Below, piece after piece: positions 3,000-19,464 of a stretch of 56,318 bases of DNA; the stretch's first letter is position 1; each line of letters starts with the position of its first letter. The stretch lies in NCBI GenBank assembly GCA_021820105.1, contig JAKAED010000005.1, positions 1 to 56,318 of the forward strand, read 5' to 3'. The notes under the pieces were generated by a model, which worked only from the letters and a program-made list of their open reading frames with translations, did no database searches and had not been told where the DNA came from. This stretch comes from Actinomycetes bacterium (lineage in GTDB: Bacteria; Actinomycetota; Thermoleophilia; Solirubrobacterales; Solirubrobacteraceae). Position numbers and translations under genes: made by a program.

Positions 3000-3033
3000 G
3001 GTACGGCGATACTAAACCGACATTGTTACGGAC

Positions 3034-4159: not shown

Positions 4160-5674
4160 ATGACCACAGCCCCCAGCAGGACCGAGAACGGCACTGTCAG
4201 CAGCCTGATTCCCGCACGACTTGACCGCCTGCCCTGGTCGCGATTCCACACGCGGATGGTGATGGCCCTGGGAGTGGCGTGGATCCTGGACGGGCTGGAG
4301 ATCACGATCGCAGCCAATCTGAGCGCTGACTTCACCCAGCACAACACACTGGCCCTATCTGCGAGCCAGTCCGCTGACATCGCCACGTGGTATCTGATCG
4401 GCGAGGTCATCGGGGCGCTCGTCTTTGGGCGATTGTCGGATGCCCTTGGTCGCCAACGGCTGTTCATGATCACACTCGGGGTGTACCTCGTTGGCAGTGG
4501 CCTGACGGCGGCAACGCAGGCCGGCGGCGGCTGGGTAGTCTTCCTGTACGCGACCAGGGTGCTCGCCGGCAGCGGGATCGGGGGCGAGTACGCCGCCATC
4601 AACTCGGCCATCGACGAGATGATTCCCGCTCGCTACCGCGGTAGGGTGGACATCGCGGTCAATGGCACCTACTGGGCCGGCGCGCTGATCGGCACCGCGG
4701 CCACCCTGTACTTCCTCAACCGACTCTCCCCGAACCTAGGTTGGCGCCTGGCATTTCTGATCGGTCCGGCGCTCGGACTGGTGATCATCTACGTTCGCCG
4801 CAACCTGCCCGAGAGTCCTCGCTGGCAACTCATGCACGGACGCGAACAGGAGGCCGAGGATTCGATCGCACGTATCGAGCGAGAGGTGCAGGCCAGCGCC
4901 GGCGCACTGGAACCGGTCAGCGACGACCAGGCCATTGAGATCCGTCCGAGTGAGAGGATCAGCTACACGGCGCTGCTGAGCGCGCTCTTCAAGCAGTATC
5001 CAGGCCGTTCAGTGTTGACCGCGGCGTTGATGATCACCCAGTCCTTCCTCTACAACGCGATCTTCTTCACGTACGGACTGGTCTTGAAGTACTTCTTTCA
5101 CGTGCCCGCCAATCACGTCGGCTACTACTTCTTTGCGTTCGCCGCCGGCAATCTCCTCGGTCCGCTGACGATCGGCAGGCTGTTTGACTCACTGGGCCGT
5201 AAGCGGATGATCGCGGGCACGTACATACTCTCTGGCACGTTGCTCGTCATCACAGCGCTGCTGTTCCGGCAGGGAGACCTGACGGCCACGACGCAGACGC
5301 TCGCCTGGTGCGTGATCTTCTTCTTTGCCTCGGCGGGCGCCAGCGCGGGCTATCTGACGGCAAGCGAAGTCTTCCCACTCGAAGTACGCGCGCAGGCGAT
5401 TGCCGTCTTCTTCGCAATAGCCCAGTGCTTTGGCTTCCTGGGCACCCACCTGTATGGCAGCCTGATCGGCACTGGACAGGACCCAAACAAGCTGTTTGTC
5501 GGATACCTGATCGGCGCGGGCGCCATGCTGCTTGGCGGCATCGTGGCCGCCGTACTGGCGGTCAGCGCGGAGGGCAGATCATTGGAGGACATCGCGGCCC
5601 CACTGTCGATGGTGGGTAGAGCGATCAAGCACGCTGGCCGCTCCGACACGTTTGCACCCGGACAGGCGACCTGA
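4160..5674 (+). CDS. MFS transporter, sugar/metabolite:H+ symporter type
   Basis: This 504-residue integral membrane protein has about 12 hydrophobic segments. The family motif between TM2 and TM3 is present as GRLSDALGRQRLF, and it recurs in the second half as GRLFDSLGRKR. The segment PARYRGRVDIAVNGTYWAGA and the PESPRW motif after TM6 fit the metabolite:H+ symporter/sugar porter branch (COG0477, pfam00083). A central cytoplasmic loop lies at about 225-275. The start is ATG preceded by a strong GGGAGGAGGAG ribosome binding site. The substrate cannot be read from the sequence. It appears to be a single-gene unit, convergent with the GH114-type gene. Confidence 0.9.
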   Translation: MTTAPSRTENGTVSSLIPARLDRLPWSRFHTRMVMALGVAWILDGLEITIAANLSADFTQHNTLALSASQSADIATWYLIGEVIGALVFGRLSDALGRQRLFMITLGVYLVGSGLTAATQAGGGWVVFLYATRVLAGSGIGGEYAAINSAIDEMIPARYRGRVDIAVNGTYWAGALIGTAATLYFLNRLSPNLGWRLAFLIGPALGLVIIYVRRNLPESPRWQLMHGREQEAEDSIARIEREVQASAGALEPVSDDQAIEIRPSERISYTALLSALFKQYPGRSVLTAALMITQSFLYNAIFFTYGLVLKYFFHVPANHVGYYFFAFAAGNLLGPLTIGRLFDSLGRKRMIAGTYILSGTLLVITALLFRQGDLTATTQTLAWCVIFFFASAGASAGYLTASEVFPLEVRAQAIAVFFAIAQCFGFLGTHLYGSLIGTGQDPNKLFVGYLIGAGAMLLGGIVAAVLAVSAEGRSLEDIAAPLSMVGRAIKHAGRSDTFAPGQAT

Positions 5675-5715
5675 AAGAGGTGATCTCAGCGACCGGCCGC
5701 GAGCGCGCACTCCCC

Positions 5716-6480
5716 TTAGGCGCTTTGGTTCCAGCAGGGCTCGAACTTCGAACCATCAAGTCTGATGCTGAAGCGAGCGCCCATGATTCCCGCACGCTGA
5801 TCATTAGCGCAGAAGCGTGCGGGGCTCAGCGCATACTCAGCGTTCAGGACCGGCTTTCCTGCTCGGAGGTAAGGTGTGAATGCAGAGCATTCCGAGTACT
5901 GGTTGCATTGCTCATCCAGCACGCCGTCAAAGAACGGCTGCAGGGCACGCGCCTGCCCGGGGTCGTTCTTCTGGAAGACCGCAAGCCCGAGTGAGTGAAC
6001 CGCGTGCGCCACCCACTTGTCGTAGCGCAACTGCTGAGCCGCTGTCAGCGGGAACCCGGTGCGATTGCTGAAGCCGTCGATGTTGTCGGGCTCAACAGCG
6101 TCAAAGCCCTTGGCCTTGCACATGCGGAAGCGGGCCAGCATGATCGGCGCCAATGACCCCAGATGGCGGATATCGAGCCAGCGCTCGCCGGGCCATCCGT
6201 TGCCACGGCCCAGCAGCGCCCGTGGGAACCTGTGAGCGTCGGGCCTCCATTGCTCCCACGTGCCGACGTCGACGTAGCAGATGGCACGCCGGCCCTGAGC
6301 GTGCAGATCACGGATCAGAGCAGGACGGGTCTCAAAGCCATCCAGGTCGTAGGCCGCTGCGTCATGGGTCAGGCTCACCCTTCCCGTCAGTTGCCAGTAC
6401 CACGTGAGGCTCTGCGGCGGATGCCACTGCGCGTGCGCCGCCACAGGCAGCAGCAGAATGACAGCGGCTACGAGCGCCAC
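5716..6480 (-). CDS. secreted GH114-type endo-alpha-1,4-polygalactosaminidase-like protein
   Basis: The mature protein (from QWHPPQSLTWYWQL) carries family motifs: YDLDGFET, ICYVDVGTWEQWRPD, WLDIRHL, KGFDAVEPDNIDGFSN and VFQKNDP. These match the GH114/TM1410-like TIM barrel, whose members hydrolyse galactosaminogalactan-type polymers. A hydrophobic signal peptide (VALVAAVILLLPVAAHAQ) precedes it, so the protein is exported. The start is uncertain. The GTG at 6480 gives a signal peptide without basic residues; a non-standard CTG at 6492 would add a TRY n-region. The open frame runs further upstream to 6843, but that part overlaps the divergent GH3 gene and looks non-coding. Confidence 0.78.
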   Translation of the reverse strand: MALVAAVILLLPVAAHAQWHPPQSLTWYWQLTGRVSLTHDAAAYDLDGFETRPALIRDLHAQGRRAICYVDVGTWEQWRPDAHRFPRALLGRGNGWPGERWLDIRHLGSLAPIMLARFRMCKAKGFDAVEPDNIDGFSNRTGFPLTAAQQLRYDKWVAHAVHSLGLAVFQKNDPGQARALQPFFDGVLDEQCNQYSECSAFTPYLRAGKPVLNAEYALSPARFCANDQRAGIMGARFSIRLDGSKFEPCWNQSA

Positions 6481-6691
6481 GTATCTGGTCAGGTTGAGCG
6501 AACGCGTACCCAGGTAGTGTGCTGATCCCCTCTCCTCACTGTGTAACCGCAGATCGACGCAACTGCTCGTTGATGCCTTGGTAGCGCTTCTGGAGAGCAC
6601 CGGTCGATTCCTGGTCATGCCGTTCCCGGAACAGTATCTTCCGGCACTGTCCCTCCGTCTGCCCGCCACCTGCCACCATCTCTGGCGGAGT

Positions 6692-7816
6692 ATGAGAGCC
6701 AGACTCGGAGCAGCCTTGAGCCTGATCGGACTGTGCGCGGCCGTTGTCCATCCGGCGCCCGCGCTGGGGCGGCGGTCGGCTCGAGCAGACCGGCTGACGA
6801 CTCCGCCGCTGACGCTCAGCCAGCTCGCCGGCGAGCACGTCATCTTCAGCTACCGCGGCCTGACGCCGCCAAGGAGTCTGCTCGCCGCCATCAGCGCCGG
6901 CAAAGCCGCCGGTGTGATCCTGTTCAGCTCCAATATCTCGAGCAGATCTCAACTGCGGCGGGTGTCCGCGAGGCTTCAGGCAGCAGCAGCCCGCAGCTCC
7001 GTGAAAGCTCCGCTGCTGATCATGACCGATCAGGAAGGAGGCCTGGTCCGCCGTGTTCCCGGCCCGCCGGCGCCATCAGAGCAGCAGATCGGGCAATCAG
7101 CGGATCCAGGTGAGCAGGCGAAGCTTGCCGGGCGGGACGGAGGCGCGAATCTCAGAAGCGTCGGTGTGAACGTCAACCTGGCGCCGGTCCTGGGTGTGTA
7201 CCGGCACGCCGGCGATTTCCTCGATCAATACGGCCGCTCGTATGGACAGAACGCAGATCTGGTCGGGCGGCTGGGAGCAGACTTCATCGGTTCGCTACAG
7301 CGCACTGGCGTCGCCGCCACCGCAAAGCACTTCCCCGGCCTGGGCACCGCCACCGCAAGCCAGAACACGGACGAAGCTCCGGTGACGCTTGAGCTCCCGC
7401 TGCGCGAGTTGCGCGCCACCGACGAGGTCCCCTACAGGGCTGCCATTCGTGCCGGGGTGAAGCTCATCATGGTCTCCTGGGCCGTCTATCCGGCGCTGGA
7501 TCCGAAGCGTCCCGCCGGGCTCTCCGCGTCCGTGATCCAGACCGAACTCCGCCGGCGATTGGGGTTCCACGGCGTGACCATCACCGACGGTCTGGGAGCC
7601 GGTGCGCTGAGGCCATACGGAGCCACACGGAACCGAGCGATCCTGGCAACCGCCGCTGGTATGGATCTGCTCCTGTGCTCCAACAGACACGTTGATCAGG
7701 GCCTGGCCGCCGAAGCCGGGCTCGTGCGCGGATTGCAGTCCAAACAACTCAGCCGCACAGACTTCACGGCGGCGACTCAGCGGGTTCTGGCGCTGAGGCG
7801 AACCCTGATCCGCTGA
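6692..7816 (+). CDS. secreted glycoside hydrolase family 3 protein (beta-N-acetylhexosaminidase type)
   Basis: This is a 374-residue single-domain GH3 protein. The start at 6692 is chosen because it begins a signal peptide (MRARLGAALSLIGLCAAVV). Family motifs follow: GVILFSSNI, TDQEGGLVRR, NLAPVLGV, ATAKHFPGLG (the KHFPG loop) and VTITDGLGAGAL, where the Asp is the expected nucleophile. NagZ-type GH3 enzymes release N-acetylglucosamine from muropeptides or chitin fragments. The usual GHG after KHFP is GLG here, so the histidine of the NagZ acid/base loop should be checked. The gene is divergent from the GH114-type gene and 28 bases upstream of the phosphoesterase gene, probably co-transcribed with it. 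Confidence 0.88.
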   Translation: MRARLGAALSLIGLCAAVVHPAPALGRRSARADRLTTPPLTLSQLAGEHVIFSYRGLTPPRSLLAAISAGKAAGVILFSSNISSRSQLRRVSARLQAAAARSSVKAPLLIMTDQEGGLVRRVPGPPAPSEQQIGQSADPGEQAKLAGRDGGANLRSVGVNVNLAPVLGVYRHAGDFLDQYGRSYGQNADLVGRLGADFIGSLQRTGVAATAKHFPGLGTATASQNTDEAPVTLELPLRELRATDEVPYRAAIRAGVKLIMVSWAVYPALDPKRPAGLSASVIQTELRRRLGFHGVTITDGLGAGALRPYGATRNRAILATAAGMDLLLCSNRHVDQGLAAEAGLVRGLQSKQLSRTDFTAATQRVLALRRTLIR

Positions 7817-7844
7817 TTGGGCACCGCGCGCTACTTTGGTGAGA

Positions 7845-9371
7845 ATGCGGCCCGGCGCCAGCAGCGCGACCCATCCACCTGCGGGTAGCGGCTCGACGCT
7901 GAGTTCCAGATGGATCGCTGAGGACGGTGAAGGTCCACTGCGTCTCGGACAAGGTGAGCCGCTGGTGGAGCGGACCAAGCTGGGAGAGCCCCGCGAGCTG
8001 ATCAGGGAACTGGTGAGCCTCGTACATCTGACCGACGCTCACGTGCTGGACCCGTCCTCGCCGGCCCGCGTGCCCTTCCTCGCACGCTTCGGCCCGCCGG
8101 TGCAGTCGACCTTCCGTCCTCAGGAGGCGCTCACGGCGCAGGTGCTGAGCGGGGCGGTGAACGCCATCAGAGCATTCACTCCGGACCTTGTGATCCAGGG
8201 CGGCGACCTGATTGACAACGCCCAGAACAACGAACTGACGTGCGCGCTGGGGGTGTTGGGCGGCCAGCGCATCGAGCCCGGCAGCGGTGCCGACGGCTAC
8301 CACGGTGTTCAGCTGGCAGCCAACCCGGACCCGCACTACTACCGACCGGACCTGGATACGCCTCGCCACCCGGGGCTGCTCACGCAGGCCTCGCGTCCCT
8401 TCACGAGCCTGGGCCTGAAAGGCGATTGGCTACCGGTGCTGGGCGACCACGACACACTGGTCGCCGGTGAACTCGCCCCGACGCCGCTCACGCAAGCTGT
8501 GGCGGTGGGCGACCGCGCGCTGTGGGAGATGCCCACCGAGCTGAGACTGCCGACAGGTCTCCGACTGAACACGGCAGGCGTTCCCGGCGAGGAGCCCGAC
8601 ACGCAGTTGGTGGACGACTTTCTGCGCCAGGCGCTGGCTGGACCCACCCTCCGGGTGCCGCCTGACCCGGCTCGCTACGAGCTCAGCTTCGAGGAGGTGA
8701 TCGAGCGGCTATGGTCAGCCTGCCGAGCCGGCGCGCAGCCCTCGATCAGCGCTGCGACGGCCGCTGCCACGGGCCGACGGCTCGACTATGTGCGTGACCT
8801 GGGTGACCACGTGCGGATTGTGGTGCTCGACCTGGTGCGCAGAGGCGGCGGCTCCGGCGGCCTGGCTGACAGCGAGCAGGCGGCGTGGCTGGAGCAGCAA
8901 CTGCGTGAGTCCGGTACACGATGGATCATGGTCGTCTCCCACCACCCACTGCAGGATGCTGCCGGCGGCGGACCACTGCTAGGCCTGTTGGACGCCGAGC
9001 CGCGCGTGGTCGCCACAATCGCAGGTCACACACACCACAACCGCATCAGCCCGAGAGAGACCGCGGCCGGCGGCTATTGGATGATCACAACCTGTTCGCT
9101 GATCGACTTCCCGCAGCAGTGCCGGGCGCTGCGCCTGTACGCGACGTCAGGAGGCGGGATCGCGCTGCAAACGTGGATGCTCGACCATGTGGACAACGGT
9201 CCGCTGGGGCACATAGCTCGCGAACTGGCCCACCTCGATGCCGGTGATGGCCGCGCCACGCGCGCATGTGGGCGGCAGCGAGACCGCAACGCGACGCTGT
9301 TCAAATCCGCGGCTCCCGCGCGTCGGGGTCGCTCCCACCGATCAGCTTCGGGAGCTGTCGATGCGCAATGA
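7845..9371 (+). CDS. metallophosphoesterase, TIGR03767-like
   Basis: This calcineurin-like phosphoesterase has about 508 residues. Metal-binding motifs are visible in order: LVHLTDAHVLD, IQGGDLIDNAQNNE, LPVLGDHD, VSHHPL and IAGHTHHNRI. The long insertion between the first two motif pairs and the overall length match the actinobacterial TIGR03767 family, whose substrate is unknown. Three in-frame starts are close together (TTG 7836, GTG 7839, ATG 7845); ATG is given. No signal peptide is seen. The 3' end overlaps the convergent flippase-like gene by 71 bases. Confidence 0.85.
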   Translation: MRPGASSATHPPAGSGSTLSSRWIAEDGEGPLRLGQGEPLVERTKLGEPRELIRELVSLVHLTDAHVLDPSSPARVPFLARFGPPVQSTFRPQEALTAQVLSGAVNAIRAFTPDLVIQGGDLIDNAQNNELTCALGVLGGQRIEPGSGADGYHGVQLAANPDPHYYRPDLDTPRHPGLLTQASRPFTSLGLKGDWLPVLGDHDTLVAGELAPTPLTQAVAVGDRALWEMPTELRLPTGLRLNTAGVPGEEPDTQLVDDFLRQALAGPTLRVPPDPARYELSFEEVIERLWSACRAGAQPSISAATAAATGRRLDYVRDLGDHVRIVVLDLVRRGGGSGGLADSEQAAWLEQQLRESGTRWIMVVSHHPLQDAAGGGPLLGLLDAEPRVVATIAGHTHHNRISPRETAAGGYWMITTCSLIDFPQQCRALRLYATSGGGIALQTWMLDHVDNGPLGHIARELAHLDAGDGRATRACGRQRDRNATLFKSAAPARRGRSHRSASGAVDAQ

Positions 9372-10293
9372 CCGCGGGAGCGGCGATCAGCAGGAAGTTG
9401 AAGACGCGATAGAGCATCACCGCCGCGAGCGCTGGAGCGAGCGGTTCCCGCACCCAGTAGAGCGCGTAGGTCATGAGCACCTCCGTGGCCCCCGCGCCGC
9501 CGAGCGGCAGGGAGCGACGCGTGGCGGCATATCCGGTGGAGTAGGCGACGATCAACCTTCCCACCCCCAGATCGATGCCGAAGGTCCGCAGGCTCGCCCA
9601 CAGGGCGAACATGTCCGCTGCCCAGTAGGCGGTGATTCCCAGCCACGCACCCAACTTCCGGAAGGGGTTCTGGGTGACCATGCTGCGCACCGCGTAGATA
9701 CCCTCCAGCATCTCCACGATCCACCTCGACCCTGGCCACCCCAGGCGCGCCAAGCCGGCCGTCCTGCTGGGCGCACTGGCCAGCACAGCCAGCACAGCGC
9801 CCAGCGGCACCGCAAGCGCCCACGGCCACAGCAGCGAGGGCATGATGTCAGCGCCCTCAGCCAGCAGCACAATCGCGGTGATGCAGGCTGTCGGAGCAAG
9901 GATCGCCCATTCAAAACTCCCCAGCGCCATCACCCGGACCCGCGCACTGCGCGGGTCCTCGTCGATTGCCTCCAGCATCCGCCGGTCGACCCCAAAGCCA
10001 CCGTCCAGTGCGAACGGACCAAAGCCGGCCACGACAATCCGGCTGACGATCGGCAGCGACAGCGGCGCATGACCATGGATCGAGGCGACCGTGCGGTACG
10101 CGAGCGCGTAGGCGGGGTAGGTCGCGAACTCGGCGGCGGCGACGACCGCGACCCAGGCCGGGCTCACACGAGCAAAGGCCCGTCCGATCACATCAGCGCC
10201 GGTAGCGTGAGCGATCAGGATGACGGCAACCGCGGCAAGCAAAGCCGCAAACGCGGTGGAGAGCCACGGCTGATCGCGAAACGGTCCGCGCAC
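9301..10293 (-). CDS. flippase-like integral membrane protein (lysylphosphatidylglycerol synthase TM family, COG0392)
   Basis: This 330-residue, almost entirely membrane-embedded protein has about 8 hydrophobic segments. Conserved small motifs of the LPG-synthase TM/flippase-like family are seen: ALAYRTV, VSRIVVAGFGPFALDGGFG, AYSTGYAATRRSLPLGGAGATEVLM (in part) and LYRVFNFLL. Family members move lipids or lipid-linked molecules across the cytoplasmic membrane. It starts with GTG 42 bases after hpnH on the same strand, so it is the last gene of the hopanoid operon. A role in handling hopanoid lipids is inferred only from this position; no HpnN-type transporter is seen here. Confidence 0.82.
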   Translation of the reverse strand: MRGPFRDQPWLSTAFAALLAAVAVILIAHATGADVIGRAFARVSPAWVAVVAAAEFATYPAYALAYRTVASIHGHAPLSLPIVSRIVVAGFGPFALDGGFGVDRRMLEAIDEDPRSARVRVMALGSFEWAILAPTACITAIVLLAEGADIMPSLLWPWALAVPLGAVLAVLASAPSRTAGLARLGWPGSRWIVEMLEGIYAVRSMVTQNPFRKLGAWLGITAYWAADMFALWASLRTFGIDLGVGRLIVAYSTGYAATRRSLPLGGAGATEVLMTYALYWVREPLAPALAAVMLYRVFNFLLIAAPAVIAHRQLPKLIGGSDPDAREPRI

Positions 10294-10335
10294 ACCAGGA
10301 CGCTACCGCGGGCGATGGTCCTCCTCAACTGATCG

Positions 10336-11337
10336 CTACTGAAGCACAGCCCGGAGTGATTGCTTGAGCGACCGCGTTGACGCCATCACCGCCGTTGGCT
10401 CGTATCCACAATGAGCCATGCAGTTGTCGCAGCGCGGATCGTTCCCACGGCCGTACTTACTCCAGTCAGTTGTCTCCAACAGCTCCTTGTAGGTGGCGGC
10501 GTAGCCGTCAGCCATCAGATAGCAGGGACGCTGCCAGCCGAACAGTGAGTAGCTCGGGATCCCCCAGGGAGTGCACTGGTAGTCGACCTTGCCCTCCAGA
10601 AAGTCGAGGAACAGGGGCGAGTGGTTGAAGCGCCACTTCTTGCGCCGACCGTCCGCGAACGCAGCCTTGAAGAGTTCGCGCGTCTGCAGCACTCCCAGGA
10701 AGTGCTCCTGATCCGGCGCCTTCTCGTAGGCGTAAGCAGGCGAGATCATCATCTGGTCGACCTCAAGCTCATCGTTGAGGAAGTCGAGCACCGACCGAAC
10801 CGTCTCGGGCGAGTCATGCGTGAAGAACGTGGTGTTGGTCGTGACCCGGAAACCCTTGGCCTTGGCAGTCCTGATCGCCGACACAGCCTTGTCGAATACC
10901 CCCTCACGAGCGACCGAAGCGTCGTGGCGCTCACGCAGGCCATCAATGTGCACGGCCCATGAGAAATACGGCGAAGGCTTGAAGAGATCGATCTTCTTTT
11001 CCATCAGGAGCGCGTTGGTGCATAGGTAGACGAACTTCTTGCGCTTGATCAGCTGGCGGACGATCTCATCGATCTCCGGGTGGATCAGCGGCTCGCCTCC
11101 GGCGATCGAGACCATCGGCGCACCACACTCCTCAATCGCACCAACAGCCTGGTCCACCGGCATCCGGCGTCGCAGTTCGTGCTCCGGGTGCTGGATCTTG
11201 CCGCAACCCTCACACGCCAGGTTGCACTGGAAGAGCGGTTCGAGCTCGACGATCAGCGGATACTTGTCGTTGCCTTTCAGACGCTGCTTCATCAGGTAGG
11301 CGCCCATGTGGGCGGCCTGTCTCATCGGCACAGCCAT
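10336..11337 (-). CDS. hpnH: adenosyl-hopene transferase HpnH (radical SAM)
   Basis: This 333-residue radical SAM enzyme joins the 5'-deoxyadenosyl radical of SAM to hopene (diploptene), the first side-chain step of C35 hopanoids. The 4Fe-4S motif CNLACEGC (CxxxCxxC) lies at about 38-45, and the SAM-binding SIAGGEPLIHPEI follows at about 77-89. The C-terminal cysteine segment RCDNCMAHCGYEPTAV is typical of HpnH, and the length is normal. The ATG directly abuts the stop of the upstream hpnG-ispH gene (TGA-ATG), which suggests translational coupling. Family recognition is strong. Confidence 0.95.
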   Translation of the reverse strand: MAVPMRQAAHMGAYLMKQRLKGNDKYPLIVELEPLFQCNLACEGCGKIQHPEHELRRRMPVDQAVGAIEECGAPMVSIAGGEPLIHPEIDEIVRQLIKRKKFVYLCTNALLMEKKIDLFKPSPYFSWAVHIDGLRERHDASVAREGVFDKAVSAIRTAKAKGFRVTTNTTFFTHDSPETVRSVLDFLNDELEVDQMMISPAYAYEKAPDQEHFLGVLQTRELFKAAFADGRRKKWRFNHSPLFLDFLEGKVDYQCTPWGIPSYSLFGWQRPCYLMADGYAATYKELLETTDWSKYGRGNDPRCDNCMAHCGYEPTAVMASTRSLKQSLRAVLQ

Positions 11338-12948
11338 TCAGCGGCCTCCTCTGTCTAGGTTCGGCGCGGAGTCGGCGCCCGCCGGCACAGACGGACTCCT
11401 GACCTCCGGCGGTAGCTTGAACTGCATCGTCTCGGTGGCGACGGCACGCTCATCCAAGGTGACCTCACCGAGGCCGCCGAGCGCACTGATCACCCGCTCA
11501 ACCAGGGCCTCCGGTGCGGATGCCCCCGCGGTCAGGCCTACCCTGCGCACCCCGCGCAGAACCGCCGGCGGGATCTGCGCCGCATCGTCAATCAGTAGTG
11601 CCGAGCAGCCGGCGCGTTGCGCCACCTCGACCAGCCGTCGCGAATTTGATGAGTTGGGTGAGCCCACGACCAGAATCACATCACAGTCTCGGGCCAGAGC
11701 CCGAACAGCGTCCTGACGATTCTGTGTCGCGTAGCAGATGTCACTGGAGGCGGGCCCGATTGCGGCGGGGAAACGACCCCGCAGCAGGTCCACAACCTCC
11801 TCCGTCTCATCCACCGCGAGCGTCGTCTGGCTGAGGTAGGCGACCCGTTCGGGATCACGGACCTTGACGTCAGCGACCTCCTCGGCAGAACCGACGACCG
11901 TGATGTGCTGCGGAGCCTCGCCAAATGTGCCCTCCACCTCCTCATGGCCCTGATGTCCGACCAGCACGATGTCAAAGCCGGCTGCCGCAAAGCGCCGTGC
12001 CTCAGCGTGCACCTTGGAGACGAGCGGGCAGGTGGCATCGATCACCTCAAGCCCTCGCTGCTGTGCCTGTGCCCGGACCGCCGGCGAAACTCCGTGGGCG
12101 GAGAAGATCACGGTCTGCCCCTCAGGAACCTGGTCAAGCTCGTCCACGAAGATCGCCCCGCGCTCCTCCAGCGAGTGGACCACATGCGCGTTGTGGACGA
12201 TCTGCTTGCGAACGTAGACTGGAGCGCCGCGGTCTGCCAGCACCCGCTCGACGATCTCGACGGCACGCTCGACGCCGGCGCACGATGCGCGTGGCGAGGC
12301 CAGCACCACCTCCCTGGAACCGAGCGCATGCGCCCACTCCTCAACCAGTGAGCATGCGCGTCGCAGAGCCCTGTAAGCGGTTGCGGTGCCAGTGATCGTG
12401 CGCAGCGGGCGGTGCAACTCCCGGCGGTTGGTGTCCAGCACAACGCGGAGCGTGACCAGCGGACGACGGCGCGTGGCCGGCACCAGCCAGGCCGATTCCA
12501 TGTCCACGGCGATCGCACCGCTGCGGAACAGCGTCCAGCGGCGCTCCCCCACGACCAGCCGCTGACTGGAGGCGATCGGCCCGATGTGGACCTTCAGTCC
12601 GCCCCGACGCAGGACCCCGGCGAGCACGGTCGGGTCGTCGCATGGTGAGGTGCCTGTCGGTCCACGGAGCTCGCTGGCGAGCACGATGTCCCCCGGCTCC
12701 AGGTCAGGATCGAGTGCTCCACAGAAGCCGGCGATCAGGATCGGGCGGTTCCCTCCGGCGGCAGAGAGCCGCGCGGATCGGGCAGCACGGCGTGGGCCCA
12801 TGCCGACCCGGCGCACATCCGCCCAGGGGGCACCGGCGCGTACGGCCCGCGCCTCCAGCGCCAGCGGCGCCAGCACAACGATCTCATCTGAACGCTCGTG
12901 AGGGCCTGCGCCCTCCGAATGCTCAACGGCTGCCAGTGCGGTGCTCAT
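11338..12948 (-). CDS. HpnG nucleosidase - IspH (HMBPP reductase) fusion
   Basis: One 536-residue frame encodes two enzymes. Residues about 20-205 match the HpnG nucleosidase/phosphorylase fold (VVLAPLALEARAV, AGFCGALDPDLEPGD, AVDMESAW), which removes adenine from adenosylhopane. Residues about 212-510 are a complete IspH, which reduces HMBPP to IPP and DMAPP. Its Fe-S cysteines are C223 (SCAGVERAV), C307 (DATCPLV) and C405 (SDICYATQNRQD); other IspH motifs are FSAHGVSP, GHQGHEEVEGT, GSPNSSNSRRL and TAGASAPE. The ATG at 12948 is chosen because the open frame upstream of it runs into hpnE. The only oddity is the fusion itself: no stop or restart separates the domains. Confidence 0.92.
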   Translation of the reverse strand: MSTALAAVEHSEGAGPHERSDEIVVLAPLALEARAVRAGAPWADVRRVGMGPRRAARSARLSAAGGNRPILIAGFCGALDPDLEPGDIVLASELRGPTGTSPCDDPTVLAGVLRRGGLKVHIGPIASSQRLVVGERRWTLFRSGAIAVDMESAWLVPATRRRPLVTLRVVLDTNRRELHRPLRTITGTATAYRALRRACSLVEEWAHALGSREVVLASPRASCAGVERAVEIVERVLADRGAPVYVRKQIVHNAHVVHSLEERGAIFVDELDQVPEGQTVIFSAHGVSPAVRAQAQQRGLEVIDATCPLVSKVHAEARRFAAAGFDIVLVGHQGHEEVEGTFGEAPQHITVVGSAEEVADVKVRDPERVAYLSQTTLAVDETEEVVDLLRGRFPAAIGPASSDICYATQNRQDAVRALARDCDVILVVGSPNSSNSRRLVEVAQRAGCSALLIDDAAQIPPAVLRGVRRVGLTAGASAPEALVERVISALGGLGEVTLDERAVATETMQFKLPPEVRSPSVPAGADSAPNLDRGGR

Positions 12949-12979: not shown

Positions 12980-14365
12980 TCAGACCTCCAGCGGAGCTCG
13001 CGTCCGGCTGACGCTGGTCGCCACGGCCATGGCTGCTTCTGCAGCCGCATGTCCGCTGCGGACCGCCCCCTCCATGGTCGCCGGCCAGCCCGTGTCAGTC
13101 CAGGCGCCCGCGAGGACCAACCCAAGAGGCTCGGCATAGGGACCCAGACGCCATGTGCGCGCGCCCGGCGCAGCGCGGAAGGTGGCGGCATGCTCCCGCG
13201 TCACGAAGAAGTCCTCAACTTCGGCCTCGGCCGCAGCCGGCAGCAGGTCGGCCAGCGCCGGTAGGTAGCGGCTCCGAAGCTCCTCGGCCGTCGCGTGCAG
13301 CTCGTCGTCGGCCGCCGAAAGCGACACGGCCAGATACTGCCCGTGGGTGACTCCGGCGCCCGCCGTACGGTCAAATACCCACTGCACCGGCGAATCGACG
13401 CTCGCAGCGAACGGATGAGGGAGCACGCGTCGGTCATAGACCACGTGCAGGTTGATGATCGGTGAACTGCCGATCCGAGCCGCCCAATCCGGCGCCAGGC
13501 CCGGCTGAGCAGGCAGCAGCTGCGCAGCCTGGGCCGGGGCCAGCGCTAGCACCACCGCGTCAGCGGTTGCGCTGAAGCCGTCGCTGGCCTCGACCCGAAA
13601 CCCGAGACGGCCGGCATCCGATCCGTCCGCGACCACCTGCCGCACGATCGCCCTAGCGGTGCTGCGCAGGTGCACGTCGACGCCCGCGCGCTGGAGCGCG
13701 GCACGGCCGCGCTCATCGTGGATCTGACCAAGTGGCCGCACGGCCCAGCCGATGTCGCCAGCCGCCGCATCGGACAGCAGTCCCACCTGAAAGACCTGTG
13801 CCGCCTGGGCCAGCGAGGCTTCGTCCACTGTGAGGTTGACCGTTGGCCGCACGATCAGCTCCCAGATCGCCTCAACAGCACGCCGGCTCTGGCGCTGGCG
13901 TCGCAGCCACGATCCAAAGGAGACAGCGTCAGCGGCGGGGTCATCCACGTTCACCTGCCGCAGTCGCTGCATCGCCCACACCAACGCGGCGCGCTCACGC
14001 CAGCCCAGATACGGATAGCGCAGCACCGAGCCGGCAAGGTGCAGTGGGGCAGGCAGCCCGGAGCGCCGCAGCCAGCCGGTGCGTCCACGGGGGGCCAGCA
14101 CCGGCACCTCAAGGCGGGGCTGCAACGTCACGAGGTCTGTGGCGCCCAGCTCCTCAAGCAGTCCACGGTATGCGCTGCAGCAGCGCAGGAAGACGTGCTG
14201 CCCGTTGTCAACGGTCATTCCCCCCCGCCTGAAGGAGTAGGCCGCACCACCCAGCCTGCCACGCGCCTCCAGCAGCGTCACGTCTGCGCCGGCCCGGGCG
14301 CAGTCAAGCGCAGCGGTGATACCGGCCAGCCCACCACCGACCACGATCACCGTCGGGGTGCTCAT
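12980..14365 (-). CDS. hpnE: hydroxysqualene dehydroxylase HpnE
   Basis: This 461-residue FAD-dependent amine-oxidase-fold protein reduces hydroxysqualene to squalene. The N-terminal Rossmann motif is VVGGGLAGITAALDCARAG, followed by the second FAD contact LLEARGRLGG and the NGQHVFLRCC segment characteristic of squalene-associated desaturase-like proteins. The C-terminal GLVLAGAWTDTGWPATMEG is the family's FAD-binding end. Its ATG overlaps the stop of hpnD by 4 bases (ATGA). The gap to the hpnG-ispH fusion is 31 bases. Confidence 0.94.
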   Translation of the reverse strand: MSTPTVIVVGGGLAGITAALDCARAGADVTLLEARGRLGGAAYSFRRGGMTVDNGQHVFLRCCSAYRGLLEELGATDLVTLQPRLEVPVLAPRGRTGWLRRSGLPAPLHLAGSVLRYPYLGWRERAALVWAMQRLRQVNVDDPAADAVSFGSWLRRQRQSRRAVEAIWELIVRPTVNLTVDEASLAQAAQVFQVGLLSDAAAGDIGWAVRPLGQIHDERGRAALQRAGVDVHLRSTARAIVRQVVADGSDAGRLGFRVEASDGFSATADAVVLALAPAQAAQLLPAQPGLAPDWAARIGSSPIINLHVVYDRRVLPHPFAASVDSPVQWVFDRTAGAGVTHGQYLAVSLSAADDELHATAEELRSRYLPALADLLPAAAEAEVEDFFVTREHAATFRAAPGARTWRLGPYAEPLGLVLAGAWTDTGWPATMEGAVRSGHAAAEAAMAVATSVSRTRAPLEV

Positions 14366-15243
14366 CGCAGGTGCTCACCTCCGACGAGCACCATGCTGCG
14401 AGCGGCCACCCAGGTCTTCTCCAACGGCGAGAGCGAGATCCGCCCACGCGTGACCTGGACCGGATCCTCCAGGATCCGGTCCAGGATGCGCCGGTAGATC
14501 CCGGTCATCGCCTGCACGCATGAGGCGCTGCGCACGTCAAGGTGATCCACCAGCCGCAGCCCGCGATCGAACCACTGAGCGGCACGCTCCGCCTCAAAGC
14601 GGATCAGGGAAGCGAGCTGTTGCTCATCGGCCAGAGCCAGATCGAGACAGCCGAAGCGCTCACGGTCCTCAGCCGGGATGTAGACGCGGCCCCGTTCACG
14701 GTCCTCAAGCACGTCACGCAGGATGTTCGTCAACTGCATCGCCACGCCCAGATCGTCCGCCAGCTGGTGCGCGTCCGGTCCGGCCTTGCCGTCACTGAAG
14801 ATCGCAAGGCACAGACGTCCCACCGAGCCCGCCACGCAACGGCAGTAGCGAACCAGCTCATCAAAGGTCTGATACTCGGCGCCCAGCACATCCAACTCCA
14901 CGCCCTCCACCAACACCTCAAGCGCATCCACCGGCAGCCGGTAGCGCTCCGTCGCGTGTGTGAGCGCCGCGATCACGTGGTCCCCCGCATCGGCCTCACC
15001 GCTCGCCACCTGCTCAAGACGCGCGCGCTCACGCGCCAGGTGCTCAATCTGCTGCTGATGGTCGAGCTCGCCGGCGTCACCGATGTCATCCACGCGCCGC
15101 GCAAAGGCGTAGGCGGCACACATAGCCTGGCGCTTGAACCGTGGCAGCAGCCTGATGCCGTAGTAGAAGTTCGCGGCCTCGCGGCGGGTTATCTGCTCGC
15201 ATTCGCGGTACGCGTATTCCAGCTCGATTGCCGCAACCGTCAT
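14362..15243 (-). CDS. hpnD: presqualene diphosphate synthase HpnD
   Basis: This is a 293-residue trans-isoprenyl diphosphate synthase of the squalene/phytoene synthase family. It condenses two farnesyl diphosphates to presqualene diphosphate. The two Asp-rich motifs are RRVDDIGDAG (about 70-79) and NILRDVLEDRERGR. LPRFKRQAMCAAYAFARR near the N-terminus is typical of HpnD. It overlaps hpnC upstream and hpnE downstream by 4 bases each, a tightly coupled trio. Confidence 0.94.
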   Translation of the reverse strand: MTVAAIELEYAYRECEQITRREAANFYYGIRLLPRFKRQAMCAAYAFARRVDDIGDAGELDHQQQIEHLARERARLEQVASGEADAGDHVIAALTHATERYRLPVDALEVLVEGVELDVLGAEYQTFDELVRYCRCVAGSVGRLCLAIFSDGKAGPDAHQLADDLGVAMQLTNILRDVLEDRERGRVYIPAEDRERFGCLDLALADEQQLASLIRFEAERAAQWFDRGLRLVDHLDVRSASCVQAMTGIYRRILDRILEDPVQVTRGRISLSPLEKTWVAARSMVLVGGEHLR

Positions 15244-16097
15244 CTTCCCGCCGCCGTTCTCAGCACCTGCCAGATGTAAGCGCGCCTGCTGATCTGCCCC
15301 CGCATGAGCACGTCGAGCGCGCGCAGACCGCCGGCCGTGAAGCCCGCGACAGCAAGTCTCGGCGCGGGCGGCAGCGTGCGCGCAAGCGGCGCGCCGCTGC
15401 CGAGCAGAGCCCTGGCCCTGGTCGCCTGCAGATCCATCATCGCGCGCAGATTGGCCGACGGCGGCAGCGCCTGCAGGTCGGCATCAGTGCAGCCAAAGCG
15501 CTCCAGATCCTCGCGCGGCATGTACACGCGGCCGCGGCTGAAATCCTCGGCGATGTCCTGCAGGTGTTCCACCACCTGCAATCCGGCACAGACACGATCA
15601 GAGAGCAGCACCCGGTCCGGGGTGGCCGCACCGAACACATAGAGCACCAGTTCGCCGACCGGCGCGGCTGAAAGCTGACAGTAGTCCAGGAGCTGCTGGA
15701 AGTTCTCGTAGCGGGTGAGCACCTGGTCCAGTCGGTTGGCCTGAATCAAGCGCTCAAACGGGCCTGCAGGCATCCGGCACTCAGCGATCGTCCGTGACAG
15801 GTCTCGCATCAACGGGTGCTGCGGCTCGCCCAGACCGGGTTGCCTGAACGCCCGGCGCAGTTCCAAAGCAACCAGCTCAAGCAGTTCACCCCGCTCCCCT
15901 GCCGACTCGTCGCCGACATCGTCCACCAGCCGGGCGAACCCGTAGATGGCGGTCAGATGACGCACCCGCCGCGGTCCCAGGATCGCGCTGGCGACGGTGA
16001 AGTTCTCATCCGCCGCCTGCGGCAGCACCTGGTCGCGGGTGGGCAGCGCGGAGATGGGAGGCAGCGCCGCGCCGGCGGCGGTGGCCACCGAGCTCAA
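15240..16097 (-). CDS. hpnC: hydroxysqualene synthase HpnC
   Basis: This squalene/phytoene synthase-family protein of about 285 residues converts presqualene diphosphate to hydroxysqualene. Visible motifs are ENFTVASAILGPRRVRHL, ARLVDDVGDE (first Asp-rich region) and HLQDIAEDFSRGRVYMP (second). The open frame reaches 16304, but that part lies inside shc and is not family-like. Candidate starts are GTG 16106, TTG 16097 and GTG 16088. TTG 16097 overlaps the shc stop and has GGGAAGG about 8 bases upstream, so it is given. The gene overlaps hpnD by 4 bases. Confidence 0.92.
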   Translation of the reverse strand: MSSVATAAGAALPPISALPTRDQVLPQAADENFTVASAILGPRRVRHLTAIYGFARLVDDVGDESAGERGELLELVALELRRAFRQPGLGEPQHPLMRDLSRTIAECRMPAGPFERLIQANRLDQVLTRYENFQQLLDYCQLSAAPVGELVLYVFGAATPDRVLLSDRVCAGLQVVEHLQDIAEDFSRGRVYMPREDLERFGCTDADLQALPPSANLRAMMDLQATRARALLGSGAPLARTLPPAPRLAVAGFTAGGLRALDVLMRGQISRRAYIWQVLRTAAGR

Positions 16098-18004
16098 AGC
16101 ACGCACCTTCCCAGCGCCATGATCGGGAAGACCAGGCGATACAGGTGGTACTTGATGTAGAAGTCGGATGGGAATCCAGTACCCGTGTGGTGAAGCTCGT
16201 CCCAGCCTCCGTCGTCGAGCTGACTGCTCACAAGCCACTGCACGCCACGCCGCACCGCCACCGAGTGACGCTGCCCGGCCGCCTCCAGCGCGAGCAGCGC
16301 CCAAGCGGTCTGGGACGGGGTACTCGCCCCGCGGCCGATCCAGTCCGGATCATCGTAGGAGCGGCAATCCTCACCCCAGCCGCCGTCGTCGTTCTGATGG
16401 CGCTCCAACCACCGGACGGCGCGCCTGATCGCCGTGTGCGTGACGGGCACGCCGGCGGCGATCAGCGCGGGCACGGCGGCGCCGGTCCCGTAGACATGGT
16501 TGACGCCCCAGCGCCCGAACCAGGAGCCACCCGACTCCTGGTTTTCCAACAGCCAACGCACTCCACCCTGGGTCAGCGGGTCGCCGCCGCGTCCCACCAG
16601 CGCCAACATCTCGACGATGTGGGCGGTCACGTCGGCGCTGGGCGGGTCGATCACCTCACCGAAGTCGCAGAACGGCAGGTCACGGATGAGCTTGCGGCAG
16701 TTGTCGACATCAAACGCTCCCCAGCCGCCATCGGAGCTGCGCATGCCCTCAAGCCAGCTGACGCCCCTATCGATCGCAGCCCGCAGCCGCGCCGGTTCAG
16801 GATGCGCGACCGTGTTCAGGGCGATCACAACCTCGGCGGTGTCGTCAATGTCCGGGTAGTTGGCGTTGGCGAACTCAAACGCCCAGCCGCCGGGCTCCAG
16901 ATCGGGTCTGCGCACGGCCCAGTCGCCGCGCTCGAGGATCTGCTGATCAAGCAGCCAGTCAGCCCCGCGCAGAACAGCCTGATCATTGCCGCGCACACCG
17001 GCGTCATGCAGCGCAATCAGCGCGAGGCAGGTGTCCCAGACAGGAGATTGGCAGGCCTCCACGCGCCGCATCGGCTCCTCGATGGTGAAGCTCTGCATGC
17101 CCGCCAGCCCGCGCCTGATCACAGGATGGTCGAGCTCATAGCCGAGCAGATGCAGCGCAATCAACGAGTACACCCAGGGAGGTTGGATCCCACCCCAGCC
17201 ACCGTCAGCCTCCTGACGATCAACGATCCAGCGCTCGAGCCGGTTCAGCGCGAGCCTACGCAGCGGGGCCGGTTGCACGCGCTGGTACACGCGCAGCATA
17301 TGGTCCACCGCAACCATCCCACGGCTCAGCAGCGAGCCTCCGCTGGGCGGCGACCACGGCTCAGGGCCATCGAGCTCCTCAAGCGTGAATGGCAGCGGCC
17401 GCACGGGGCGGAAACAGAGCACAACGGAGAGCGCCGCAACCGTCTGACGCGCCCAACAGGCAAAGTCGTAGAGGTTCAGCGGAAACCACTTCGGCAGGAA
17501 GATCATCTCCGGCAGCAGCGCCGGAACCTGACTCCAGGGCCACGCCCCGAACAGCGCCAGCCAGATGTGGGTGAACACGCGGGCCTTCTGCAGACCACCG
17601 GCCTGCCGGATGTGTGCTGCTGCCGCCGCCATATGAGGCTGCTGCGGTTCATCGCCCGCAAGCCGGAGCGCCACGTAGGCCTCAATGGTGGTCGAAAGCT
17701 CGGCTGGCCCACCATGAAAGTTGCTCCAGGTGCCGTCTGGGCGCTGGTGCGAGCGGATCCAGTCGGCGCAGCGAGCGGTCACATCCGGCTCGCGGATGCC
17801 GAGGAACTCACGCAACAGCATGTCCTCGGCGTCCATCGTGACGTTGGTCTCGAGCTCGCCCTTCCACCAGCCGTCGGCGTGCTGCAACGACCGGAGTTTC
17901 TCAACGGCGCGCGCCAATGCAGCCGCAGCATCGCCCGACACGCCGGCCGCTGCTTCGCTCTGCTTCAGGGGTGGTTGGTCACGCTGGCGGCTCAGGGCAT
18001 CCAT
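16094..18004 (-). CDS. shc: squalene-hopene cyclase
   Basis: This 636-residue cyclase converts squalene to hopene at the membrane. The catalytic DxDD motif is DIDDTA (about 385-390), and the ACQSPVWDT segment lies ahead of it. Several QW repeats are present (for example QEADGGWGG, SSDGGWGAF, QNDDGGWGE, QLDDGGWDE). Length matches bacterial cyclases. ATG 18004 is preferred; an in-frame TTG at 18034 would add 10 residues. It is the first gene of the minus-strand hopanoid operon and is divergent from hpnO across 32 bases, so both promoters must be very compact or the transcripts leaderless. Confidence 0.96.
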   Translation of the reverse strand: MDALSRQRDQPPLKQSEAAAGVSGDAAAALARAVEKLRSLQHADGWWKGELETNVTMDAEDMLLREFLGIREPDVTARCADWIRSHQRPDGTWSNFHGGPAELSTTIEAYVALRLAGDEPQQPHMAAAAAHIRQAGGLQKARVFTHIWLALFGAWPWSQVPALLPEMIFLPKWFPLNLYDFACWARQTVAALSVVLCFRPVRPLPFTLEELDGPEPWSPPSGGSLLSRGMVAVDHMLRVYQRVQPAPLRRLALNRLERWIVDRQEADGGWGGIQPPWVYSLIALHLLGYELDHPVIRRGLAGMQSFTIEEPMRRVEACQSPVWDTCLALIALHDAGVRGNDQAVLRGADWLLDQQILERGDWAVRRPDLEPGGWAFEFANANYPDIDDTAEVVIALNTVAHPEPARLRAAIDRGVSWLEGMRSSDGGWGAFDVDNCRKLIRDLPFCDFGEVIDPPSADVTAHIVEMLALVGRGGDPLTQGGVRWLLENQESGGSWFGRWGVNHVYGTGAAVPALIAAGVPVTHTAIRRAVRWLERHQNDDGGWGEDCRSYDDPDWIGRGASTPSQTAWALLALEAAGQRHSVAVRRGVQWLVSSQLDDGGWDELHHTGTGFPSDFYIKYHLYRLVFPIMALGRCVL

Positions 18005-18036
18005 ACTGTTGGCGTCCGTGTCTCTTGTACCCAAAA

Positions 18037-19464
18037 ATGGCAGTTCCAGCCCCCAACTCCAGCGGCTCCCATAAGCCTGAGATTAACGACGTTGCGAAAC
18101 TCCGTGCCGCACACAGTGGCATGGGGCTCGCGCTGAACCAGCGTTACCTCAACCGGCAACTGGGTCGCGTGCTCCAGACGCTCGACTTTGATCGTGAGTG
18201 GGTCCGGGGTGAGGGACCGTACCTGATCGACACCCGAGGCCAACGGTACCTCGACCTGTACGCCGGGTACGGCGTGTTCGGACTGGGGCGCAACCATCCG
18301 TTCGTGAAGGCGCAGATGCACGCGCTCCTGGACAGCGATCCGCCGAGCCTGCCGCAGCTGGGCACCTCGACTCTGGCTGGCCTGCTGGCGCAGAGCCTGG
18401 TTCAGCGCGCTCCGCGCTCGATCGACGCGGCGCTGCTGACCAGCTCCGGCACCGAGTCCGTTGAGGGCGCGCTGAAGCTCGCGCGTGCCGCCACCGGCCG
18501 CCCGCGCATCCTGTTCTGCGAGCGAGGCTTTCACGGACTCACCTACGGATCTCTGTCGGTCAACGGCAATGAGGAGTTTCGCGAGCGCTTCGGGCCGCTG
18601 CTGCCGGGCTGCGAGGCCGTGCCGTTCGGGGACATCGAGGCGCTCGAACGTGAACTGGACTCGGGTGACGTGGCGGCCTTCATCGTCGAACCGATCCAGG
18701 GCAAGGGGGTCTATGTCGCGCCCGACTGGTATCTGGCCGCCGCGCAGGAGCGCTGTCATGCCGCCGGCGCGCTGCTGATCCTGGACGAGGTGCAGACCGG
18801 CCTTGGCCGGACCGGCAGGTTCCTGGCGCTGGAGCACTGGGACGTGCAGCCGGACATGATCACCCTCTCAAAGGCGCTCTCCGGCGGATATGTGCCGGTC
18901 GGCGCGTTGCTCGCAAGCCGTGCGGTGTTTGATGCGACCTTCGACTCCATGGAGCGCAGCGTGGTCCACGGCTCAACGTTTGGTGGCAACGACTTTGCGG
19001 CCGGTGCCGGTCTGGCGAGCCTGATGGCGATCGATCAGGAGGAGCTGGTCGAGCGCGCGCGCAGACTGGGCGGGCTGCTGATGGAGCTCACGCACCCGCT
19101 GCTCGAGCGCTTTGAGATCGTGCACGACATCCGGGGTCTCGGGCTGATGTGGGGTCTCGAGCTGGGCCCCCCCTCCGGGCGTATCGGCCGGCGCGTATGG
19201 GAGGCGATCGAGCGCCGGCAGCCCGGGCTCTTCGCGCAGCTGATCACGGTGCCGCTGTTTCGCGAGCACAGGATTCTCACCCAGGTTGCCGGCCATCACA
19301 TGAACGTGATCAAGGCTCTGCCGCCGCTGACCATCCCCGAGGAGGAGTTGCGCAGGTTCGTGTCGGCACTGGAGCACGTGCTGGCTGAGGCCGAGTCGGG
19401 ATTGCTGCGCGGCTACGCGAACTTCGGTCTCGACCTGGGCCGGCGGCTGCTGTTCGCGCGCTAG
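18037..19464 (+). CDS. hpnO: class III aminotransferase HpnO (aminobacteriohopanetriol synthesis)
   Basis: This 475-residue PLP enzyme belongs to the acetylornithine/4-aminobutyrate class III family. Motifs are SSGTESVEGALKLAR, ERGFHGLTYGSLS, LILDEVQTGLGRTG with the PLP-binding Asp, and TLSKALSGGYVPVGAL with the PLP lysine. The divergent position next to shc supports assignment as HpnO, which transaminates the hopanoid side chain to aminotriol. By sequence alone it could be another class III transaminase. The start at ATG 18037 is uncertain; MGLALNQRYLNRQ at 18121 is an alternative that leaves room for a promoter. It overlaps the convergent PilZ gene by 4 bases. Confidence 0.85.
   Translation: MAVPAPNSSGSHKPEINDVAKLRAAHSGMGLALNQRYLNRQLGRVLQTLDFDREWVRGEGPYLIDTRGQRYLDLYAGYGVFGLGRNHPFVKAQMHALLDSDPPSLPQLGTSTLAGLLAQSLVQRAPRSIDAALLTSSGTESVEGALKLARAATGRPRILFCERGFHGLTYGSLSVNGNEEFRERFGPLLPGCEAVPFGDIEALERELDSGDVAAFIVEPIQGKGVYVAPDWYLAAAQERCHAAGALLILDEVQTGLGRTGRFLALEHWDVQPDMITLSKALSGGYVPVGALLASRAVFDATFDSMERSVVHGSTFGGNDFAAGAGLASLMAIDQEELVERARRLGGLLMELTHPLLERFEIVHDIRGLGLMWGLELGPPSGRIGRRVWEAIERRQPGLFAQLITVPLFREHRILTQVAGHHMNVIKALPPLTIPEEELRRFVSALEHVLAEAESGLLRGYANFGLDLGRRLLFAR

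Follow-up and report, generated by a model that had tools for sequence, protein, structure and literature searches.

An HpnG-type nucleosidase and a complete IspH share one open reading frame in hopanoid operons of Actinomycetota

The hopanoid operon of a Solirubrobacteraceae genome (Actinomycetes bacterium, assembly GCA_021820105.1) contains a gene in which a single open frame of 536 codons without a stop encodes a complete IspH preceded by a divergent nucleosidase of HpnG type. The gene lies in the window, which designates the whole stretch of DNA analysed here, 56,318 nucleotides in length (contig JAKAED010000005.1, positions 1 to 56,318, forward strand). HpnG acts on adenosylhopane, the product of HpnH, from which it removes adenine, and IspH reduces HMBPP to IPP and DMAPP. 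We propose that the product is probably a two-enzyme chain, composed of an HpnG-type nucleosidase or phosphorylase and of a second, hopanoid-dedicated IspH isozyme, each of which would act independently. Hopanoids correspond in bacteria to sterols and count among the major molecular fossils, and the presence in several actinobacterial lineages of a putative C5-supply enzyme within the hopanoid operon itself bears on the tuning of lipid output.

Both halves are recognised by family profiles and by their predicted fold. In Pfam, PNP_UDP_1 (PF01048) matches residues 48-204 with 48 bits (cut-off 25.1) and LYTB (PF02401) matches residues 214-490 with 315.9 bits (cut-off 24.5), while the NCBIfam IspH model TIGR00216 (ispH_lytB) scores 318 bits, far in excess of its cut-off of 187.85. 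The top NCBIfam match of the N-terminal half is HpnG (TIGR03468), with 74.6 bits; this value is below the cut-off of 187.1, and the half is therefore named HpnG-type and not filed as TIGR03468. The low score reflects a narrow model and not the fusion, since all six unfused HpnG-type proteins that were scored (five from hopanoid clusters of other genomes, together with the second HpnG of genome G052) also fall below the cut-off, at 65-86 bits. The predicted model comprises both folds (mean pLDDT 86.1, pTM 0.80), linked by a helix of 27 residues (181-207) and four residues preceding the first IspH strand, and no additional membrane segment was found in it. The sole parts outside the two folds are short tails at residues 1-20 and 520-536, with pLDDT <50, and the low confidence of the first of these leaves the start codon uncertain by about 20 residues. 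In Foldseek, the IspH half matched E. coli IspH (9ql0_A, E 1.3e-32, 52% identity, TMt 0.93) with its three-lobed fold, and the HpnG half matched an MTA/SAH nucleosidase (6ayq_B, E 1.2e-9, 18% identity), a family that was also retrieved by profile. The first-pass annotation of this DNA, made from the letters alone, had read one uninterrupted frame with an HpnG-type nucleosidase and an IspH bearing three Fe-S cysteines; Pfam, NCBIfam and the model confirm this reading, and C223, C307 and C405, the ligands of the [4Fe-4S] cluster, are invariant in an alignment of 26 rows.

Table 1. Fused gene, its two halves and the neighbouring genes in the window
Feature	Coordinates	Strand	Basis
Fused gene, HpnG-type nucleosidase + IspH, 536 aa	11338..12948	-	open frame, Pfam/NCBIfam matches, predicted model
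HpnG-type half, residues ~22-207, long helix 181-207 at its end	12328..12885	-	profile and fold matches
IspH half, residues ~212-519, with C223, C307, C405	11392..12315	-	profile, alignment and fold matches
LPG_synthase_TM-type membrane protein, next gene after hpnH	9301..10293	-	PF03706 32.4 bits, just below cut-off 33.4
hpnH, adenosyl-hopene transferase	10336..11337	-	TIGR03470 541 bits, cut-off 225
hpnE, hydroxysqualene dehydroxylase	12980..14365	-	TIGR03467 383 bits, cut-off 283
hpnD, presqualene diphosphate synthase	14362..15243	-	TIGR03465 268 bits, best match, slightly below cut-off 278.6
hpnC, squalene synthase	15240..16034	-	TIGR03464 256 bits, cut-off 250; start uncertain, frame open to 16304
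shc (hpnF), squalene-hopene cyclase	16094..18034	-	TIGR01507 726 bits, cut-off 431
Class-III aminotransferase, divergent, hpnO-like	18121..19464	+	aminotransferase family matches; start uncertain

The gene order on the minus strand, a strand that the first reading did not give, is shc, hpnC, hpnD, hpnE, the fused gene and hpnH (Table 1); the fusion is located between hpnE and hpnH, and the first reading of a location inside a hopanoid operon is confirmed. The genes are tightly packed: hpnD and hpnE overlap by 4 nt, hpnE ends 31 nt before the ATG of the fused gene, and the TGA stop of the latter abuts the ATG of hpnH (TGAATG). The earlier idea of a joint expression of precursor supply and late tailoring is supported by the location of both halves in one frame within this operon. 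The membrane protein encoded after hpnH gave no NCBIfam match at 1e-5 and has a counterpart in only one (L075) of the 80 loci from named genomes described below. The aminotransferase on the other flank, presumably to be named hpnO, has a counterpart of 82% identity adjoining the cluster in three loci (L064, L066 and L067).

The active-site motifs of both halves are largely retained among the fused proteins. A motif survey covered 56 distinct fused IspHs (residues in E. coli IspH numbering). All 56 contain the motifs for H41, H74, C96, H124/E126, T167/T168 and C197, and 55 that for C12, the sole miss (L133) still having the Cys. GASxP is found in 53, with the Ser retained in both of the misses inspected out of three, and NSSNS in 50, with SSN retained in all three of the misses inspected out of six. 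The HMBPP-site and cluster-ligand motifs of the fused IspHs can therefore be regarded, at the level of sequence, as intact. Of 60 distinct fused rows of the HpnG half, 59 have the Glu of MES and 55 the catalytic-type Asp (three Glu, one Arg and one gap in the others); the 49 unfused HpnG rows all have both residues. The NG86 dN/dS ratios of six close pairs (dS 0.6-1.3), 0.07-0.22 for the HpnG half and 0.05-0.19 for the IspH half, indicate purifying selection on both.

The first-pass annotation had envisaged that, if this were the only ispH, an essential gene would be locked into a lipid operon. This proposition proved false: the search for a second copy, run on this draft genome of 4.0 Mb (264 contigs, 88.9% complete), located a stand-alone ispH at C189:10077-11030, which rules out the fused gene as the only ispH, and a stand-alone copy is likewise found in nearly every fused genome examined. 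In the first genome search, which covered 61 genomes including our own, the full-length fusion occurs in 18, of which 17 have a further IspH, the exception being G017. In a class sample of 349 genomes, the fusion was verified in 17 genomes at least 90% complete, a set that leaves out two further genomes with long frames (G184 and G219); two IspH matches were obtained in 16 of the 17 and one in G017. All 12 named genomes with the fusion have a further IspH, and two Amycolatopsis have two further ones. One IspH match was obtained in each of the ten unfused-HpnG hopanoid genomes of genus group g35 that are at least 90% complete. The fused IspH alone was found in G017 (90% complete), and the rule of a spare copy may thus have exceptions. 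At locus L235 (G165:C172), a second, stand-alone IspH is located at 2573-3520, around 1 kb past the hpnH of a fusion-carrying cluster, and groups with a stand-alone IspH of the same family.

A search for the two-domain architecture was then conducted among Actinobacteria. Named genomes were scanned with a profile of the HpnG half and one peptide pattern, A[VA]DMES[AS]W, and among the best 80 of 112 HpnG-relative loci 49 are fused, 29 are unfused (L094, truncated at a contig end, among them) and 2 carry an IspH remnant, proportions that are not to be read as prevalences. A hopanoid gene adjoins the fused gene in all 49 fused loci among these best 80; hpnH is directly downstream in 47 and shc or hpnE directly upstream in 47, the two others being contig ends in each case. 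The carriers include Conexibacter sp. S30A1, Amycolatopsis, Pseudonocardia, Actinopolymorpha, Phytohabitans maris, Acidimicrobiaceae and an Ilumatobacteraceae bin. Two broader searches, which score few candidates per genome and so yield lower bounds, gave at least 31 genomes with matches spanning both halves among 249 of the order of Amycolatopsis rubida (its own genome included, and one of them, G806, decayed), and an HpnG match at 1e-15 in at least 23 of 396 genomes of the phylum (five fused, 11 of one genus with unfused HpnG and seven weak). HpnG is unfused in all 11 Streptomyces-like hopanoid genomes of group f30/g145. As regards plasmids, none of the 87 matched records covered 80% of the query, and no plasmid-borne fusion was found among them. 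The fusion is old and widespread, extending over several classes of Actinomycetota; a restriction to Thermoleophilia is ruled out by the fused loci in other classes.

This distribution also bears on the reading of the gene as an artefact, that is, as a frameshift or an assembly join, which the fragmented draft state of the genome could suggest. Such an origin has a negligible probability, and a sequencing error or a frameshift or stop between the domains is excluded, since the same frame is present in complete and isolate genomes such as those of Conexibacter sp. S30A1 and Amycolatopsis rubida, in 49 of the 80 named-genome loci and in full-length matches in 18/61 genomes; the purifying selection in both halves also argues against it. 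Two loci stand apart. In Pseudonocardia sp. CNS-139 (L095, 7653-9487), one of the 49, the IspH half extends over two frames, which may be real decay or an assembly error. The decayed copy of G806 (L258, G806:C9, 6343-8256) shows altered motifs in its HpnG as well as its IspH half and resembles an orphan undergoing decay; no hopanoid gene was found in the 14 kb fetched around it, which counts against a constant location in hopanoid clusters outside the 80 named-genome loci.

The phylogeny of the IspH half sets it apart from the housekeeping enzyme. A first tree of all 121 rows contained long branches, and its labels needed 5 changes, with L061 and L098 outside. A more careful tree was built on 89 rows after removal of 32/121 (long-branched stand-alone rows, the cut row L022 and near-copies); in this tree, one clade (support 98/95) unites the fused IspHs with a single stand-alone IspH, apart from the other stand-alone IspHs, and the C189 copy of our genome clusters with those resident in the same genus. 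The stand-alone IspH of L206 and three decayed copies branch from within the fused IspHs. In the AU test, a single clade of fused rows was not rejected (p 0.66), which is not a proof of it, whereas a topology that groups the fused Solirubrobacterales copies with residents of the same genus was rejected (p 8.5e-5); a recent local duplication of the housekeeping ispH is thereby rejected as the source of the fused half. According to these trees, the fused IspHs are an old lineage, separate from the housekeeping IspHs. The HpnG tree (101 rows) is less informative as to whether the fusion arose only once: its label changes number 7 (unfused) and 10 (fused), of which 1 and 3 are forced by starred branches, and its inner forks are poorly settled, with fissions, refusions or poor resolution as possible causes. 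The label changes in the first tree and in the HpnG tree, as well as the copies that branch from within the fused IspHs, speak against a simple single origin.

The junction between the halves is nearly invariant. The distance between the last position of the HpnG profile and the PRxxC motif is 12 residues in 52 of 53 distinct fused loci and 14 in the remaining one, a count that leaves out two loci without PRxxC; the HpnG half itself has 17 different net lengths among 54 loci. The constancy of the junction would be explained by common descent, but equally by a needed geometry. It could be considered that the loss of a stop fused hpnG to an extra ispH that the operon already contained, with no gain beyond that of staying in the operon. 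The adjacent genes of this operon already overlap or abut, and the halves behave as independent units, both of which fit such a neutral event. However, the adjacent unfused hpnG/ispH pair that it predicts was not seen, the 29 unfused named-genome loci being without ispH in the fetched flanks except L099, and the fusion has been maintained with its junction fixed; we consider the neutral account unlikely. The exception itself does not represent a stand-alone IspH beside an unfused HpnG: the frame of L099 opens with the end of a decayed HpnG of the G052 type and corresponds to a fusion cut at a contig end.

Several genomes have lost or inactivated one half while retaining the other, thus providing natural dissections of the fusion. 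In Phytohabitans flavus and P. suffuscus, the HpnG is intact and the IspH is cut in frame to a short start and a C-terminal part, without the three Cys; Phytohabitans maris keeps the whole fusion. Conversely, in G052 the fused HpnG half is decayed (Asp to Arg, MES Glu to Gly), the IspH is intact and a separate intact HpnG follows shc. The locus L099 has the same gene order and the same Arg, its upstream HpnG being cut by the contig end, and these are the two Thermoleophilia with an IspH behind a decayed HpnG. G881 carries, besides an intact fusion, another IspH to which a decayed HpnG is attached. In two genomes, the IspH is accompanied by other genes of isoprenoid synthesis: G966 (L256, G966:C21, ~4967-10333) has a polyprenyl synthase, an IspH behind a decayed HpnG, dxs and ispG, and G432 (L240, G432:C1, ~4896-11117) has a polyprenyl synthase, a terpene synthase, an IspH without HpnG, dxs and ispG. 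The IspHs of G966, G432 and G881 all nest among the fused ones. Furthermore, in Acidimicrobiaceae, for example at locus L127, a dxs directly follows hpnH in the fusion-carrying cluster (10417-12288 in L127), so that one hopanoid cluster encodes the enzymes of both the first and the last MEP step; dxs is at the edge of 5 of 10 automatically fetched loci. The association of fused-lineage IspHs with dxs and ispG is the best evidence for a role in the supply of C5 units.

These cases also weaken the need for a physical coupling between the two halves. Such a coupling would mean that the IspH is dimerised via the nucleosidase, that the fusion keeps it close to Shc and HpnH at the membrane, or that one half regulates the other. 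Known MTA/SAH nucleosidases are dimers, and the constant junction, the long and rigid-looking helix with its four following residues in the predicted model and the persistence of the fusion over several classes of Actinomycetota would all be consistent with this proposal. Against it stand the loss or inactivation of either half alone in several lineages, the distance between the two steps in the pathway and the lack of an extra membrane segment in the model, and we regard a functional coupling as quite improbable.

A more specific hypothesis is that the IspH half, whose housekeeping duty the second ispH would have taken over, is the missing side-chain reductase that converts ribosylhopane to bacteriohopanetetrol, one chain cutting off adenine and then reducing the sugar. 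The half is indeed fused to the enzyme that would make ribosylhopane, all fused genomes except G017 have another IspH for HMBPP, and the enzyme for this reduction is stated not to be established in the accessible part of one article (PMC12583986). However, the HMBPP-site motifs are retained, the relatives of this lineage accompany dxs and ispG at a distance from hopanoid genes, and many hopanoid clusters are devoid of such a protein. To our knowledge, the reduction of an aldehyde or hemiacetal is foreign to the chemistry of IspH, and this function appears to us extremely improbable.

We therefore return to the two-enzyme chain. It can be hypothesised that its N-terminal half removes adenine from the adenosylhopane delivered by HpnH, whose gene is the next in the operon, and that its C-terminal half is a genuine IspH reducing HMBPP to IPP and DMAPP. 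The fused IspH would raise the supply of C5 units when the hopanoid operon is on, and the stand-alone ispH would serve the rest of the cell. The fusion would confer a fixed 1:1 synthesis and a joint inheritance with the operon, rather than channelling, which is unlikely because the two steps are far apart and non-consecutive in the pathway. The two halves probably work independently, and their co-localisation is possible.

A related fusion, not mentioned in the first-pass annotation, has been described. Among fusion events that could be random, Rao et al. (2015, Chem Sci, PMC4746011) mention, in the part of the article available to us, one of a UDP/PNP phosphorylase with IspH, reported for three strains of Frankia, and the word 'hopanoid' is absent from the text of PMC4746011. 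As in the present case, a phosphorylase-superfamily domain precedes IspH in one chain of an actinobacterium, and from this domain order, as given in the descriptions alone, it is probably the same protein. That fusion is, in the available portion, reported in one genus, whereas the one studied here is of HpnG type, lies in hopanoid operons, is widespread, belongs to one IspH lineage and is accompanied by a second ispH. The IspH-RPS1 and IspH-UbiA fusions, termed Rosetta stone proteins in the same portion of PMC4746011, also join a complete IspH to a second protein; there, however, IspH is N-terminal (UbiA being on its C-terminus) and its partner is a ribosomal S1 protein or a prenyltransferase, while here it is C-terminal. 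The stand-alone HpnG of TIGR03468 shares with our N-terminal half the best family match, the place in the operon before hpnH and the MES and Asp motifs, but differs by the absence of fusion and by a score that our half does not reach, a shortfall common to its unfused relatives of hopanoid clusters. Finally, extra MEP genes occur in terpene clusters: on a Streptomyces plasmid, an ispH adjoins the genes of a polyprenyl synthase and a P450, and G966 and G432 have the polyprenyl synthase/dxs/ispG modules; the ispH of these clusters is stand-alone or behind a decayed HpnG, without a live fused partner. No paper naming an HpnG-IspH fusion was found in the literature searched, which comprised few of the subscription journals. 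As far as searched, the identity of the partner, the breadth, the lineage and the natural dissections are new.

The consulted part of PMC13001223 names IspH as a bottleneck of the MEP pathway, and for this reason an IspH carried by a hopanoid operon may also be of relevance to the engineering of terpene yield. The natural split cases, with HpnG without IspH and IspH without HpnG, make the choice between coupling and co-expression directly testable. A word of caution for annotation is also warranted, as ispH copy counts, or naming by the longer domain, mislabel the HpnG of these clusters. Elsewhere in the window, a GH114 glycoside hydrolase frame is located at 5716-6843 (-) and a ferredoxin-oxidoreductase-type protein of 1170 aa with a POR domain at 28959-32471 (+). 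An IS66-family transposase is encoded at 46152-47570 (+), and the tRNA-Pro predicted at 46616-46710 is doubtful because it lies inside the frame of this transposase.
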